DNA of 39,702 bases from the IMG/VR virus record IMGVR_UViG_3300042261_002392, positions 1-39,702 of that record, one strand, 5' to 3'. Below the pieces are notes generated by a model. That model saw nothing but the letters and a program-made list of their open reading frames with translations. It had not been told where the DNA came from and searched no databases. This DNA is from a virus. This document shows positions 4,209 through 39,702 of this stretch, piece after piece. Every line of letters begins with the position of its first letter. Position 1 is the stretch's first letter. The translations under genes were made by a program, and so were the position numbers.

Positions 4209-4712
4209 ATGCTGACAGATGTTCACATATGGACGGACGGTAGCGTGACTACCAACCCAGGACCTGCTGGTTACGCCGCAGTGTTGGTTCACAACCAAGC
4301 TGCCCGTATTGTTGGTGGGCACAATCGCCATGCAACAAACAACGTTGCCGAGACGGAGGCGGTTTGCCTGGCCCTGAGTGCGCTTAAGAAACCTTGCAGG
4401 GCGATTTTCAACACAGACAGCATGTATGTGATTTACGGCATGCAGCGTGTTCTGGAGAACATCAAGTACGGCAAGAAGCGTCTGCCCAAGACAAACACCG
4501 AAGTTTGGGAAGATGTTCGTAGTCTGGTTGGGAAGCACAGCATCATCATGCTGAAGGCGGAAGGCCATTCTGGCGACCCGTTCAACGACCTTGCTGACTA
4601 CTACGCCGGCATCTGTGCCTTCAAACAAACCAATGTGGACTTCCTGGTCGCTGATTACACGACCATTCTGGATGCGCCAAAGAAGAAGAAGGCTTTTCGC
4701 TATGCTTATTAG
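4209..4712 (+). CDS. Ribonuclease H-like protein
   Basis: Would cleave RNA in RNA-DNA hybrids, for example primers. The 167-residue product shows the RNase HI pattern: WTDGSV (first catalytic Asp), NNVAETEAV (Glu), FNTDSMYVI (second Asp), and GHSGDPFNDLAD near the end with the His and last Asp. All four acidic residues are present, so it is probably active. It overlaps the following methyltransferase by 11 bp. The tail after about residue 140 is an extension of unknown role. Confidence 0.85.
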   Translation: MLTDVHIWTDGSVTTNPGPAGYAAVLVHNQAARIVGGHNRHATNNVAETEAVCLALSALKKPCRAIFNTDSMYVIYGMQRVLENIKYGKKRLPKTNTEVWEDVRSLVGKHSIIMLKAEGHSGDPFNDLADYYAGICAFKQTNVDFLVADYTTILDAPKKKKAFRYAY

Positions 4713-5670
4713 GACTTACCAGAATGAAATAGACGGGGCCTGCTGCGCTGTTCTACGCCGGCAGTTCCCAACTTCCTATGTTGACCAGCGGAGTATTGAA
4801 TATGTCCAACGAGAAGACCTTTACCAGTACGACCAAGGCCATTTTTTCGCAGGTATCGGAGGATTCTCTCTCGGCTTTGAACGGGCTGGCCTACCAGCAG
4901 ATGTCAATGTTTGGACCGGAGGGTTTCCCTGTCAGGACCTCAGCGTTTCTGGCAAGCGTGCCGGTCTGGCTGGAGAGCGGAGTGGACTGTACTTCCAGTT
5001 CCACCGACTTGTTACAAGCCTATACCCAAGATGGGTGGTCTTTGAAAATGTCCCCGGACTTCTCAGTTCCAACGATGGGTGGGACTTTGCAATCGTTATC
5101 GGAGGACTTACCGGGGTCATACCGAGCGTTCCTAAGCAGGGTTGGGGAAACGCAGGGTTCGCAAGAGGACCCATCTACAGTGTGGCATACCGCATTCTCG
5201 ATGCGCAGTTTTTCGGAGTTCCCCAACGGCGCCGTCGTGTCTTCATTGTCGGAAGTCTTGGAGACAGCACCTGCTCCGAGATACTCTTTGAGCCAGAAAG
5301 CCTGCCAGGGGATACTCCGCCGAGCAGAGAAGCGGGGCAAGGCTATACCACCCTTTTTACGGAAGCTGCTGGAAGACAGGCTGTAGCCTACATCGCCAAC
5401 TGGCAGTCGGGTGGTGGAAAGATGGATGACAACGTGGCCGCAACCATTCGGGCTGGGGCCGAGAACAGCTACCAGTTCGTGTATGGGCAGGACAGCGGTG
5501 TACGCAGGCTTACCCCAACCGAGTGCGCCCGCCTCCAGGGGTTCGGGGATGATTGGAACTCGTGGCTCTCGGATGCTGCTCGTTACAAGCAATTTGGAAA
5601 CGCTGTTTGTGTGCCTGTTGCTGAATGGATTGGGCGACGACTTATTACAACTACCAGACGGAAGGATTAG
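4702..5670 (+). CDS. C5-cytosine DNA methyltransferase
   Basis: Transfers a methyl group from SAM to C5 of cytosine, probably to protect phage DNA from host restriction. In 322 residues: FFAGIGGFSLG (motif I, about 48-58), GGFPCQ (motif IV with catalytic Cys, about 73-78), FENV (motif VI, 114-117), QRRRRVFIVG (motif VIII), RRLTPTECARLQGF (motif IX) and FGNAV (motif X). The motif II/III-like segment (NEIDGACCAVLRR...VDQRSIEYV) comes before motif I and only about 20 residues separate motifs I and IV, a permuted layout I know from some phage enzymes. The open frame extends upstream to 4591, but ATG 4702 overlaps the RNase H stop by 11 bp and is preferred. A second reading frame runs inside it (4802-5386). 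Confidence 0.88.
   Translation: MLIRTYQNEIDGACCAVLRRQFPTSYVDQRSIEYVQREDLYQYDQGHFFAGIGGFSLGFERAGLPADVNVWTGGFPCQDLSVSGKRAGLAGERSGLYFQFHRLVTSLYPRWVVFENVPGLLSSNDGWDFAIVIGGLTGVIPSVPKQGWGNAGFARGPIYSVAYRILDAQFFGVPQRRRRVFIVGSLGDSTCSEILFEPESLPGDTPPSREAGQGYTTLFTEAAGRQAVAYIANWQSGGGKMDDNVAATIRAGAENSYQFVYGQDSGVRRLTPTECARLQGFGDDWNSWLSDAARYKQFGNAVCVPVAEWIGRRLITTTRRKD
4802..5386 (+). CDS. Overlapping +1-frame gene inside the C5 methyltransferase
   Basis: A 194-residue frame lying wholly within the methyltransferase gene, shifted +1. ATG 4802 has CGGAG 8 bases upstream, a plausible ribosome site in its own right. The product contains DGWSLKMSPDFS, SLSEVLET and near its end SQKACQGILRRAEKRGK, a basic helical tail. 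From memory, proteins ending in a similar ACxGILRRAxKRGK tail occur beside phage cytosine methyltransferases; this was not searched. Part of the pattern is forced by conserved methyltransferase codons (ENV gives KMS in the +1 frame), so translation is plausible but unproven. Role unknown. Confidence 0.45.
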   Translation: MSNEKTFTSTTKAIFSQVSEDSLSALNGLAYQQMSMFGPEGFPVRTSAFLASVPVWLESGVDCTSSSTDLLQAYTQDGWSLKMSPDFSVPTMGGTLQSLSEDLPGSYRAFLSRVGETQGSQEDPSTVWHTAFSMRSFSEFPNGAVVSSLSEVLETAPAPRYSLSQKACQGILRRAEKRGKAIPPFLRKLLEDRL

Positions 5671-26391: not shown

Positions 26392-27189
26392 ATGGACGTA
26401 AAAGTTATCGACCTGGAAAAGCTGCTTGAGCGGCGGAACATCCGCACCGTGGCTGATGATGAAGTCAAAGCCCTGGCTGAGTCCATGAAGCAGACGGGGC
26501 AGGAGGTCGAAATCCGGGTCTACCCTGCCGGCAATGGCTCATACTTCGTGAAGTCCGGGCACCGCCGAGTGGCTGCCGCCAAGCTGATTGGATGGACCAC
26601 CCTCCGGGCTGTGGTTGATATGCCGCCCCAGGATGAAGTTGCCCTGGTTATCAGCCAGTTCAATGAGAACAGCCAGCGCAAAGACCTGTCCTACATGGAT
26701 AAAGCCCGGGTGTATGAACATCTGAAGGAACTGGGGATGAGCAACCGGGAAATCGCAAGGACCGTAGGCGAGACTGACCAGGGAGTTAGCATGGCCTTGA
26801 AGCTGGTGCGGGCTGACCCAAAAATCCAGAAGGCCGTGGAAGAAGGACGGGTATCTCCATCCGCTATTGAACCTCTGCTTGCCAGGCCCCTGGATGTCCA
26901 GGCTCGACTGGCGGATGCGGCCATTCAGGCTAAGACTGTACGCAGGGTAGCCGCTCTCATCGCCGCTGATGTGGAAGACGAAGAAATGGTCGTTGCTGCC
27001 TGGAGCGATGAAGAAGAAGCTGACCCCCTGGAGCAGGTCGCCGCCCAGGAACTCGAAGAAGCCCTGGCCCATCTGCGCCAGGCTGCCCTGACGCCCATCA
27101 CTGACCAGAGCTTGCGACGCAGCTCACGCCCTACCGTTGCGCAACTGGTGGAAGTGGCGCACAACATCAAGCAATACCTGGAGGAGTGA
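26392..27189 (+). CDS. ParB/Spo0J-like DNA-binding protein
   Basis: A 265-residue protein. N-terminal ParB-type nucleotide-binding region with KSGHRRVAAAKLIGW (box II-like, normally GERRxxAA), then ENSQRKDLSYMDKARVYEHL and the HTH LGMSNREIARTVGETDQGVS (about 118-137), followed by acidic helices. Could segregate a plasmid-like prophage or act as a CTP-dependent clamp/regulator. No ParA is seen in the window, so a regulatory or methylation-linked role is as likely. TGATG overlap with the next gene. Confidence 0.8.
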   Translation: MDVKVIDLEKLLERRNIRTVADDEVKALAESMKQTGQEVEIRVYPAGNGSYFVKSGHRRVAAAKLIGWTTLRAVVDMPPQDEVALVISQFNENSQRKDLSYMDKARVYEHLKELGMSNREIARTVGETDQGVSMALKLVRADPKIQKAVEEGRVSPSAIEPLLARPLDVQARLADAAIQAKTVRRVAALIAADVEDEEMVVAAWSDEEEADPLEQVAAQELEEALAHLRQAALTPITDQSLRRSSRPTVAQLVEVAHNIKQYLEE

Positions 27190-27362
27190 TGTTAGACCAA
27201 CTGCTTTACGGGGTGCCTATTCTATTAGGCGCCCTTCTTATTTGCTCTGCCATACTCAACATACCTGAAGCCAGCCTGAAAACGAACAGCGTCATGCTGA
27301 TAATCGGGATGGCCATCGTGGTTGTATCTGTCCTTCAATGGAATTGTGGGAGGACGAAATGA
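27189..27362 (+). CDS. Small two-helix membrane protein
   Basis: Fifty-seven residues: first span LLYGVPILLGALLICSAIL, second span SVMLIIGMAIVVVSVLQW, basic end CGRTK. Coupled to its neighbours by overlaps at both ends. Function unknown; third tiny membrane protein of the window. Confidence 0.55.
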   Translation: MLDQLLYGVPILLGALLICSAILNIPEASLKTNSVMLIIGMAIVVVSVLQWNCGRTK

Positions 27363-27982
27363 CTACCATCTACCTGAAAGAAGGGGTGGAGCTTCCTGCC
27401 CGGGATAGGACTGACCACTACGCCACCCCACGTAATCTGATAACAGCCACCCTGGAAGCCGTCCCTGCACACCACAGGTTCACTTCTGCTCTGGACATCG
27501 GAGCCGGGGACGGCAGATGGGGACAGGAGGTTTTACAGCAGTTCCCGAAAGTGAATATCATGGCCGGCGTTGAGATTACGGACCAGCCAAAACCAGAAGG
27601 CTTTACCCTATGGTGTCCACATGTGGACTTCCTGACATGGGAACCTCCCTGCATGTTCAACCTGATTGTTTCCAACCCGCCCTACTACATCGCTGAGGAA
27701 ATCATCCGCAAAGCCTGGACCCTGCTGGAGCCAGGGGGAGAGATGATAATGCTGCTGCGGCTGGCTTTCCAGGCTTCCATCGCTCGTTACAAGGGGCTGT
27801 GGAAAGAACTGTACCCGATTGAAATTATGGTTTGCAGTCGCCGCCCATCCTTCTATGGGGGTGGGACAAATGGCACAGACTACGGGGTATTCGTCTGGCA
27901 CAAGCAGTCAAATGGAACCCCGTTAGGGCATCCCCTATCCTGGCGCACCCGCCTGCTGAATTACGAGAAAGACCTGGAATGA
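27359..27982 (+). CDS. DNA N6-adenine-type methyltransferase
   Basis: A 207-residue SAM-dependent enzyme: DHYATPRNLI (a YxTP start often seen in phage adenine methyltransferases), SALDIGAGDGRWGQEVL (motif I) and LIVSNPPYYIAEEII with NPPY (motif IV), then LLEPGGEMIMLLRL. NPPY marks amino-group methylation, probably adenine N6. No partner nuclease is beside it, so it is likely an orphan protective enzyme. ATGA overlaps on both sides; the sequence TGTCCACATGTGGACT lies inside it at 27614. Confidence 0.78.
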   Translation: MTTIYLKEGVELPARDRTDHYATPRNLITATLEAVPAHHRFTSALDIGAGDGRWGQEVLQQFPKVNIMAGVEITDQPKPEGFTLWCPHVDFLTWEPPCMFNLIVSNPPYYIAEEIIRKAWTLLEPGGEMIMLLRLAFQASIARYKGLWKELYPIEIMVCSRRPSFYGGGTNGTDYGVFVWHKQSNGTPLGHPLSWRTRLLNYEKDLE

Positions 27983-36704: not shown

Positions 36705-36722
36705 CTTTTAGAAAGGACTTGA

Positions 36723-37301
36723 ATGGATGAACTCTCACTTTTCACTGGAGCCGGAGGAGGCCTTCTCGCAACCAAGCTTCTCGGATGGAACCATGTTGGA
36801 TACGTTGAAATCGACAGATACTGCCAGCAAATCATCGCCGCCCGCATCCGGGATGGATATCTCAACAACGCCCCTATTTTCAGCGACATCCGTGCATTCA
36901 TTGGTGACGGGTACGCCGCAGGATATTCGGGACTGGTTGATATCATCACAGCAGGCTTCCCTTGCCAGCCCTTCAGCATTGCAGGACAGCGAAAAGGTGC
37001 AGACGATAACCGAAACCTTTGGCCCGAAACCATCGAGTGTATCCGTATCATACGTCCAGCTTTCGTTCTTCTCGAAAATGTCCATGGCCTTCTCTCCTCC
37101 GGTTACTTCGGGCAAGTCGCACAAGACCTGGCCGAAAGCGGGTACGATTTTGGGTGGCGTATTCTATCCGCAGCCGAAGTGGGAGCGCCGCATAAACGGG
37201 ACCGGCTTTGGATTGCAGCCAAAGCCAACGCAAACTACAGGTTCGCCGCCAGCCAGCCCCAGGAACAATGGTCAGAAGTTTCCTACCCCAACTGCCGATG
37301 A
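36723..37301 (+). CDS. C5-cytosine methyltransferase, N-terminal catalytic subunit (split enzyme)
   Basis: A 192-residue product with LSLFTGAGGG (motif I), YVEIDRYCQQ (II), SDIRAFIGDG (III), AGFPCQPFSIAGQR (IV, catalytic Cys), LLENVHGLL (VI) and VGAPHKRDRLW (VIII), then an early stop. Target-recognition region and motifs IX-X are missing from this frame but present in the overlapping +1 frame (36727-37887). This division matches known two-chain C5 enzymes such as M.AquI (alpha with I-VIII, beta with recognition region, IX and X). AAAGGA at 36712-36717 serves ATG 36723 at 5 bases. Confidence 0.78.
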   Translation: MDELSLFTGAGGGLLATKLLGWNHVGYVEIDRYCQQIIAARIRDGYLNNAPIFSDIRAFIGDGYAAGYSGLVDIITAGFPCQPFSIAGQRKGADDNRNLWPETIECIRIIRPAFVLLENVHGLLSSGYFGQVAQDLAESGYDFGWRILSAAEVGAPHKRDRLWIAAKANANYRFAASQPQEQWSEVSYPNCR

Positions 37302-37887
37302 CGCCAACAACGTCACTCGCACCAGCGGAGCCTACCAGTCCCTGACCCGGGCTGTGATGTGGCCAACCCCCATGAACCGGGATTGGAAAAGCGGGAAGGT
37401 GAGCAAGGAAACATCCGAGAAGAACAGCCGGCCATTACCAGAAGCAGTGGTGGCAGCGACTACGTGGCCAACCCCGGGGCACACCCCCTGGCACTCAACA
37501 AATAACCGCGGGAAAATCCGGGAGAATGTAGGGACTGAGGAAGAATACCGGGCGATGACAGCCGGCAACTTTGGCAAGCTCAACCCTGACTGGGTGGAGT
37601 GGCTGATGGGCTGGCCCATAGGCTGGACTTCCCTGGACCATTTACCTGAAGAGAATATGGCTACATGGGTTCAGGGGATGGCCGTTACGGTCAACAGGGT
37701 CTACGGTTTCTCGGGAGAGAGCATTGGCTGGTGGGACACAGACCCTGCTGACGATGAGAATACCAGCGTCCCACGGCTGGTCCCCAAAGCAGAGAACAGG
37801 GTCAACAGGCTGAAGGCCATTGGGAATGGGCAGGTGCCTGCTGTGGCAGCAATTGCTTGGAAGCTCTTATCAAACCAACCCCACTGA
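36727..37887 (+). CDS. C5-methyltransferase C-terminal subunit with long overlapping N-terminal part
   Basis: A 386-residue frame, +1 relative to the catalytic subunit, open from 4 bases after that gene's start to well beyond its stop. Residues 1-192 overlap it completely; from about 193 the frame is alone. The single part has FPTPTADDANN at its border, LNPDWVEWLMGWPIGWT (motif IX-like) and AIGNGQVPAVAAIAW (motif X). In the overlap: QQASLASPSALQDSEKVQTI, FSKMSMAFS and TWPKAG. From memory such SPSALQ / WPKAG / PTPTA proteins accompany phage C5 enzymes; not searched. ATG 36727 is 9 bases from the shared ribosome site. A frameshifted fusion of both frames is the alternative. Confidence 0.68.
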   Translation: MNSHFSLEPEEAFSQPSFSDGTMLDTLKSTDTASKSSPPASGMDISTTPLFSATSVHSLVTGTPQDIRDWLISSQQASLASPSALQDSEKVQTITETFGPKPSSVSVSYVQLSFFSKMSMAFSPPVTSGKSHKTWPKAGTILGGVFYPQPKWERRINGTGFGLQPKPTQTTGSPPASPRNNGQKFPTPTADDANNVTRTSGAYQSLTRAVMWPTPMNRDWKSGKVSKETSEKNSRPLPEAVVAATTWPTPGHTPWHSTNNRGKIRENVGTEEEYRAMTAGNFGKLNPDWVEWLMGWPIGWTSLDHLPEENMATWVQGMAVTVNRVYGFSGESIGWWDTDPADDENTSVPRLVPKAENRVNRLKAIGNGQVPAVAAIAWKLLSNQPH

Positions 37888-37998: not shown

Positions 37999-39702
37999 TT
38001 ACACATCAGGTGACAACTTATATTTCCGAAGCAACCCTCTAAGGGTCACTCCATTAATTAACTCAATAGGTTTTCCCTCAGCAAAACGAGCTGCGGCTTT
38101 GGTAAAACTCCCAGTTGTTATAAGAATACCTTTGTTTGCCCCCTCCGAAATGATAACTCCAAATAAATCTCTTAAGGCTGGTTCACCGACAGGATTTACC
38201 CAGTCCTTACACTGCACTATGTATTTTCCAGAAAAAATGGCGCTCGAACTAAAGGCAATAATGTCTATACCTCCATCCCCAGATGCCTTTGTGGTTGCTG
38301 CCGATAATCCCATCGCTTGAAGAAGCCCCCTTACCTGTTCTTCTAATCCAAGGCCATTATTAATTCTGCTATTCTCGTTGGGGATGAATGAATTTTGGGT
38401 AACTTGGTTTTCAGTAATACCCGTATTTTCCACTCGCCGGATAACCAATTCCAAATCCCATAATTCTTTTTCATTTCCTGATGCATCATAAATGGCTCGT
38501 AGAATTTTTAAGGCATGGACGTCGTCTGGATATCTTGCAAGGTGCTTTTTTAAATCAGATGTAATTTCTTTTAGCAAAATCATTTTGAGGGCATTTGGTC
38601 TTCTTGTTATCGATTTACTCTCCTTTTTTACTATGGCGGAATATTCTTCGTTCGAAAAATTACTTTCAGCACTTGTAAGGTTAAGGATAAGAATTTTTGC
38701 TTTTGCCGACTTTAGATTATTGGATAATCCATGAGAAAGTGCGGTAATTAATTCATCCTTTGCTTCTTGAAGGACTTCATTGCTAAACGCAAGAATTCTC
38801 CAGGTTGGTCTCATCTCCTGTGAAATTGTCTCTATCCAGTATGTTGATTTTTCATCACCTATGGTCATGAACAAGGGATAGTAAGACAAGAGCAAAATTG
38901 CTAAGGCAAAGTGCAAATCACCATTGTCTGGCTCAGTCAGAATACGTTTTCTCAGCATCTCAATTAAATCCCGCTTTGCCTGGGTGCCAGCAATTGATTC
39001 AAGATTACCTAGTCTGGCCGATGCCTGTTGGTTATTGGGATTCAGCTTCAGGACCAAAGACAAACAACGAGCTATGTATTCAGGTTGATTGAATGCATCT
39101 GATAAAGCAAGCCACAATTGTTCGTCTTCTTGGCACCGAAGTGGATATCTATCTAATTCGTCAAGAATTATTTGGCATGCGTATGTTTTTTTATCACTCG
39201 ATATTAATTCTCTTGCTCGCGCCACTAAGTCAATATTCTTACTTTGACTTTCATCTTGAACTTCCTTACCATCATGCCCTGAAACCTTGCCGGATATGTG
39301 AATTGTATCTACTGCTATCTGCCAATCTGGAACAAATACCCACTCTAAAATAGCAAAAATATCACTAAGAACCGCTTTAGAACTCCATGGGGCTATAGGA
39401 TATATCCTTGGCCCTCCTTCCCCCAATAATCTCCAAGCTTCAAGAATAATACAAGTATTCTTATTTCCTTTATCCTGCGTCCTAAAACATGCTAACTCAA
39501 GTTCATACTCTATTGGGGTTCCATTTCCGTCTTTTTTAGGCCAAATGACGGCTACAGTTGAAGTTGATGGTCCAGTCTGACTACTTTTAAGCCTCCAAAT
39601 TTCCTTTTGAGCAAGACCCTCGGCAATTAATCGAAGTGCATCTGGACTGAATCCTGGCTCTTCAACAACGAAACATATTTTCCCTTCCATTTCTGTTATC
39701 AT
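37999..39702 (-). CDS. Large protein with C-terminal Mrr-type restriction endonuclease domain
   Basis: A 567-residue frame; its start codon is at the window edge, so the true N-terminus may lie outside (an inner ATG is at 39690). The last 110 residues form an Mrr_cat nuclease: LGLEEQVRGLLQAMGL, SGDGGIDIIAF (Asp), YIVQCKDW (Q-x-K), GILITTGSFTKAAARFAEGK and IELINGVTL. All catalytic positions are present. The middle has TPR-like helical pairs (ALSDAFNQPEYIARCLSLVL, NNQQASARLGNLESI). DNA is clearly AT-richer than the rest and on the opposite strand. Could be a type IV or Mrr-like defence protein carried by a prophage, or host flank. Confidence 0.72.
   Translation of the reverse strand: MITEMEGKICFVVEEPGFSPDALRLIAEGLAQKEIWRLKSSQTGPSTSTVAVIWPKKDGNGTPIEYELELACFRTQDKGNKNTCIILEAWRLLGEGGPRIYPIAPWSSKAVLSDIFAILEWVFVPDWQIAVDTIHISGKVSGHDGKEVQDESQSKNIDLVARARELISSDKKTYACQIILDELDRYPLRCQEDEQLWLALSDAFNQPEYIARCLSLVLKLNPNNQQASARLGNLESIAGTQAKRDLIEMLRKRILTEPDNGDLHFALAILLLSYYPLFMTIGDEKSTYWIETISQEMRPTWRILAFSNEVLQEAKDELITALSHGLSNNLKSAKAKILILNLTSAESNFSNEEYSAIVKKESKSITRRPNALKMILLKEITSDLKKHLARYPDDVHALKILRAIYDASGNEKELWDLELVIRRVENTGITENQVTQNSFIPNENSRINNGLGLEEQVRGLLQAMGLSAATTKASGDGGIDIIAFSSSAIFSGKYIVQCKDWVNPVGEPALRDLFGVIISEGANKGILITTGSFTKAAARFAEGKPIELINGVTLRGLLRKYKLSPDV

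Follow-up and report, generated by a model that had tools for sequence, protein, structure and literature searches.

The virus record IMGVR_UViG_3300042261_002392 of IMG/VR (39,702 bases, analyzed in full, i.e., positions 1 to 39,702; hereafter the window) carries on its plus strand two overlapping reading frames that, judging from sequence comparisons, very likely encode one DNA cytosine-C5 methyltransferase (C5 MTase) as two separate chains. Chain A (36723..37301, 192 aa) holds motifs I-VIII, i.e., the S-adenosylmethionine (AdoMet)-binding and catalytic part: motif I reads LFTGAGG, PCQ with the catalytic Cys81 occupies residues 80-82 (motif IV, 36960..36968), ENV occupies residues 118-120, and the motif VIII region GAPHKRDR is followed 25 residues later by a TGA stop (37299..37301). 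Chain B (36727..37887, 386 aa) is read in the +1 frame relative to A, from an ATG 4 nt after that of A, and is open through all of A, which gives an overlap of 575 bp (36727..37301) in which the third frame has 15 stops. Chain B brings the target-recognition domain (TRD) region with its PTPTA/WPTP repeats (B about 163-282, 37213..37572), motif IX (LNPDWVEWLMGWPIGW; GKLNPDWVEWLMGWPIGWTS at 37573..37632) and motif X (RLKAIGNGQVPAV; RLKAIGNGQVPAVAAIAWKLL at 37807..37869). An earlier, sequence-only reading of this DNA had described both frames, the AAAGGA that serves their two starts, an overlap of about 575 bp and the supply of the PTPTA, motif IX-like and motif X parts by the second frame, and each of these elements was recovered in our analysis. 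We consider that the two-frame layout is real at the level of the family, and that the copy in the window is very probably functional.

Profile searches are consistent with this division. PF00145 matches residues 3-182 of chain A (E 6.6e-39, 134.7 bits), and the key residues of motif I, PCQ, ENV and motif VIII are invariant or nearly so in our alignment of chain-A sequences (A1), where PCQ is invariant. An observation on the side is that motif VI of chain A reads ENS (ENSPML) rather than the usual ENV in L018, L012, L070 and other MSWL-type loci. Chain B has no match in Pfam. Among PHROG families, phrog_1008 matches B 60-303 with positions 28-281 of its 329-position profile (E 3.4e-23), reaching well into the overlapped part, and phrog_363, which matches chain A with an E-value of 5e-56, also matches B 284-380. 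Chain A thus belongs to phrog_363 and chain B to phrog_1008; PHROG labels both as DNA methyltransferase and lists them apart, and we saw no remark there linking them as two frames of one DNA. Motifs IX and X follow the TRD in the order found in C5 MTases, and both are in chain B.

When the two frames were searched separately, the same layout proved to be widespread. A scan of IMG/VR with chain B gave at least 595 relatives, of which 80 were kept. In the majority of these relatives, A is a longer MTase open reading frame (ORF) with motifs I-VIII and X; the WPTP repeats and motif IX lie in the +1 frame, and this frame is free of stops across nearly all of the gene. We also assembled a sample that is not biased towards B by fetching loci through an alignment of chain A alone and removing near copies (n=75); this sample covers the relatives of chain A rather than all C5 MTases. 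In it, motif IX is in frame A+1 in 58 loci, in frame A in 3 and in frame A+2 in 1, and it was not found in 13. Homologues with a single unbroken frame and no open +1 frame, which the sequence-only reading had named as the observation that would speak against two chains, are mostly not what is seen. Motif IX is also in A+1 in 72 of 79 bacterial and archaeal genome contigs, whose hits were selected with B. Over all non-redundant loci, from isolates and metagenomes, it is in A+1, separate from motifs I-VIII, in 187 of 209, as it is in the window. Motif X accompanies motifs I-VIII in frame A in 143 of these 209 loci; in the window it is in B, a layout shared by about 20 non-redundant loci. Four loci match B and have no match to A (L229, L234, L248 and L249), which makes them candidates for a B gene that stands alone; in two of them, L229 and L234, the match lies within the first 221 bases of the contig.

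The two-frame layout also occurs in named phages. These include mycobacteriophage Roosevelt and Paenibacillus phage Shelly, in whose record gp56 bears the label 'g55 internal gene', as well as Acinetobacter phage ABMM1, Stenotrophomonas phage SOVA965 and Pseudomonas phage phPA-G. The last three records each list a single chain: only frame A is annotated in ABMM1 (L087), and only frame B in SOVA965 (L088), as a methyltransferase, and in phPA-G (L089), as a hypothetical protein. Four relatives have a single frame, namely L091, L127, L159 and L179. In the first of these (Mycobacterium phage Moonbeam gp69, L091 1335-2438), the PTP repeats and motifs IX and X are all in frame A, and a +1 frame that resembles B and contains a TWPKTG motif is still open for 178 codons; this gene may descend from a two-frame gene by re-fusion.

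The case that frame B is coding inside the overlap is carried by the family. As a null model, we permuted synonymous codons within each A sequence, which preserves protein A and its codon usage. Over A residues 43-168, 25 non-redundant divergent loci (A less than 70% identical) have no B-frame stop where 48 are expected, and the product of the per-locus probabilities is 1e-32. Over the same residues in 47 loci (less than 65% identical), frame B has 13 stops as compared with 107 expected, and the third frame has 258 as compared with 279. Single-chain relatives with motif IX in A have B-frame stops near expectation (8 vs. 8.9 in L127, 5 vs. 7.1 in L159). In close pairs, A-synonymous changes that create a B stop occur at about 0.08 of the expected rate (3 changes in 492 opportunities), whereas the rate in flanking control genes is 0.62. 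The comparison of constraint that the sequence-only reading had proposed points the same way: dSN/dSS for B in the overlap is 0.36 [0.27-0.50] in close pairs and 0.80 [0.50-1.21] in flanking control genes. Ratios for the third (+2) frame were rejected as a control for the +1 frame, since codon-position bias makes the comparison unfair; we relied instead on flanking genes, on stop creation and on single-chain MTases.

The claim that the roughly 190 overlapping residues of B are under double coding stands insofar as B is held open across the family, but constraint on individual residues is found in only a few segments. It is clear mainly at WPxxG (B 135-144) and at the first WPTP, and much of the remainder is constrained mostly just to stay open. 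The strongest B-specific conservation within the overlap is in the segment WPKAG...GGVFY (B residues 135-148, 37129..37170), which is predicted to form a hairpin; the W, P and G of B over A positions 136, 137 and 140 are conserved far past A's shadow (z 13, 10 and 10).

The two frames divide their labor, each acting mainly as a linker where the other holds its module. Over motifs I-VIII, A is strongly constrained (dNN/dSN 0.07), and B is kept open, with clear constraint on residues in only a few columns. In loci with motif X in A, the reverse holds across the TRD and motif IX: B is strongly constrained (dNN/dSN 0.08), and the residues of A are nearly unconstrained. Nevertheless, changes that create an A stop there occur at 0.05 of the expected rate, as compared with 1.39 in the third frame, which argues that A is a pass-through held open in order to reach motif X. 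Loci with motif X in B, such as the window, are a natural counter-test of this idea. In all 25 of them, the A frame gathers stops after motif VIII (4 to 33; in the window 7, i.e., the stop of A and six more before 37887), as A need not cross the TRD region when X is in B and can end 25 residues past motif VIII. In a tree of chain A (107 rows, made by a quick method), the type with X in B is scattered, and the rows nearest to the window include both types. By parsimony, X has switched between A and B 15 times, and strongly supported (starred) branches by themselves require at least 4 of these changes. The ability of X to work from either chain points to one enzyme formed by both.

Chain B would be translated from its own start, which may be the ATG 4 nt into A, sharing the Shine-Dalgarno (SD) site of A, or an internal ATG near A codon 24-44. 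The SD-like AAAGGA (36712..36717, plus strand) lies 5 nt upstream of the ATG of A and, through its AAGGA, 9 nt upstream of that of B. The window also has B-frame ATGs at A codon 24 (36793..36795) and A codon 44 (36853..36855), neither with a clear SD. Among two-frame loci, 124 of 215 have a B-frame ATG just ahead of motif I of A, and codon 2 of A is AAT in 43 cases and AAC in 1, a preference that preserves the ATG of B. In part of the window's subclade, however, B has stops up to A codon 42; an internal B ATG lies at A codon 27/28 (near A codon 24-28 in relatives), often accompanied within A by a GGAGG-like site. The open stretch of frame B begins no earlier than A codon 19-44 in L001, L002, L082 and L083, the four relatives closest to the window (A 64-71% identical), so the initial 20-45 residues of the 386-aa ORF may be unimportant or untranslated.

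What the overprinted part of B contributes is suggested by one relative in which it does not overlap. The single frame of L179, on a contig of an Actinomycetota metagenome-assembled genome (MAG), holds motifs I-VIII, a segment similar to the N-terminal domain of B, WPTP repeats, IX and X. The segment, which reads FARFDEKTLSWRS...PWPRSGFVRTG, aligns at the right place in the B profile (hhalign P 5.9e-5; 19.5 bits, as compared with 10.3 for the best of 5000 shuffles). This placement points to the overprinted part of B as the start of the target-recognition region. No other non-overlapped copies of this domain were found in viral contigs or phage records. An apparent second example, L204 (65 bits), was ruled out as a local frameshift within the overlap; in this Fibrobacter MAG locus (2013-2491), A and B exchange frames mid-overlap, as from one indel, which looks like a sequencing error or decay.

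We also joined A to B in silico by reading through from one frame into the other. PF00145 then matches over positions 3-313 of 324 (138 bits vs. 134.7 for A alone), and phrog_363 over positions 56-311 of 327 (212 bits vs. 191). An AlphaFold model of this read-through chain superimposes over its residues 1-387 on M.HhaI 12-324 with a Z of 21.6 and a root-mean-square deviation of 3.2 over 209 aligned residues, and the M.HhaI-like fold includes the C-terminal helix. A and B would assemble into one enzyme with an M.HhaI-like fold; each chain alone would be expected to be inactive. The enzyme would methylate the phage's DNA, probably as a protection against host restriction.

Several observations weigh against this interpretation. 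Expression of the chains, formation of a complex and methylation are all predictions from sequence or from the model. The fused model does not resolve the TRD, and its predicted local distance difference test score (pLDDT) is about 55-70 in motifs IX and X; chain B folded alone has a pLDDT of 54 and gave no usable fold. The non-overlapped N-terminal domain is known from the single MAG locus L179. Taken alone, the window makes a weak case for B: a B frame open over all of A has a probability of 0.14 when the synonymous codons of A are permuted and of 0.006 under the phage's codon usage, and thus ranges from unremarkable to modestly unusual, and comparisons of the window with its own subclade are too divergent to give clear constraint on B. 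Finally, a dNN/dNS of 0.35 for B over motifs I-VIII was dropped as a sign of purifying selection, because flanking single-frame genes give 0.37 in the same control, and it is no evidence for B.

Three other explanations of the locus were weighed. A programmed +1 frameshift near the end of A could fuse A to the C-terminal half of B, in which case the upstream part of frame B would not be translated. The read-through chain does make a complete MTase, the four single-frame relatives show that such an arrangement exists, and the stop of A in the window has a weak context (TGAC). However, a fusion product has no need of a B frame held open over motifs I-VIII (0 vs. 48 stops), the A stop contexts of 25 window-type loci have no slippery motif in common, and a fusion in relatives that carry X in A would be left without X unless two opposite shifts took place. 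We therefore regard a frameshift, which the sequence-only reading had offered next to two chains, as improbable.

We give similarly little credence to the idea that the window's copy is decayed or inactive, with A truncated and B persisting through recent descent, even though the window by itself cannot show constraint on B and the phage encodes a second C5 MTase (4591-5670). Motifs I-X are all intact across the two chains, about 20 non-redundant loci scattered over the tree share the layout, and stops have gathered only in the frame that no longer holds a module. A sequencing or assembly indel that splits an ordinary single-chain MTase is very improbable, although the read-through joins cleanly and at least one locus, L204, looks like such a case. 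The two-frame layout is seen 187 times among 209 non-redundant loci, which come from isolates and metagenomes, and in the window seven A-frame stops follow motif VIII while B is open across the whole of A. The earlier argument that sequencing error does not explain the locus had relied on the open B frame; with these seven stops and about 20 loci of the same layout, such an error is excluded for practical purposes. The two-chain reading, with real double coding, is by comparison supported by the homologues, the avoidance of stops, the partition of modules and the predicted fold.

The principle of a C5 MTase in two chains is known. In M.EcoHK31I, the gene for the second chain lies within that for the first, in a different frame. 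PMC3404938 names two known two-chain C5 MTases, this enzyme (YGGCCR; Lee et al. 1995 as cited there) and M.AquI (CYCGRG). According to the same source, motifs I-VIII, X and the predicted TRD of M.EcoHK31I are on the large subunit and only IX is on the small chain; in M.AquI, the break falls after motif VIII, the second chain has IX-X, and the two subunits share the variable region. Compared by motif layout, the window resembles M.EcoHK31I in having two polypeptides with IX on the second, and most relatives come closer, as their IX is in the +1 frame while A holds X; unlike in M.EcoHK31I, the TRD and X of the window are both on B. The window shares with M.AquI the split after VIII and the location of IX and X on the second chain, but all of its WPTP repeats are on B and its genes overlap by 575 bp. 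The window thus differs from each type in a tested feature while sharing the working principle.

Two phage gene pairs are similar. In Paenibacillus larvae Fernvirus gp55/gp56 (Shelly), a full MTase gene contains an internal gene in another frame with WPTP repeats and IX, but B opens later inside A. Two cytosine methyltransferases are listed in a comparative paper on 48 P. larvae phages, which does not discuss double coding (PMC6070908). In mycobacteriophage Roosevelt, genes 77/76, A ends just after VIII and B has PTP repeats, IX and a motif-X-like end, but B is open only from about 180 bp ahead of the A stop, which makes for a short overlap. In the library that we searched, no paper was found that treats this phage MTase family as double-coded.

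Other genes in the window are relevant to DNA modification. The second C5 MTase of the phage (4591-5670, plus strand) is in one frame of 359 aa (PF00145 5.1e-49, phrog_116 7e-72). A further methyltransferase is at 27338-27982 on the plus strand (phrog_799 1e-31; Pfam MTS), adjoined by a ParB-like gene at 26392-27189. Adjoining the two-frame MTase and convergent with it, a 567-aa ORF on the minus strand (37999-39702) has a TPR-like part and a C-terminal Mrr_cat restriction-endonuclease domain (PF04471, 5.8e-28); it begins at the last base of the record and may be cut. This ORF is possibly a restriction partner of the two-frame MTase.

Beyond the window, the subfamily of phage and prophage C5 MTases as a whole is probably obligately double-coded. 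One active site would be built from two chains that lie in two frames of the same strand over 0.5-1 kb, the linker of each chain coinciding with the domain of the other, and motif X, which is essential, would have moved repeatedly between the frames. Annotations often carry only one of the chains, and an assay of such an enzyme that includes just one chain would presumably fail. Two functional frames that overlap at length on the same strand are rare, and proof is difficult; this subfamily offers hundreds of natural replicates in viruses and prophages, with a built-in test, in that A stays open past motif VIII only where motif X lies downstream in A. If the subfamily is indeed obligately double-coded, the start of the target-recognition part of B would exemplify overprinting within a catalytic gene.
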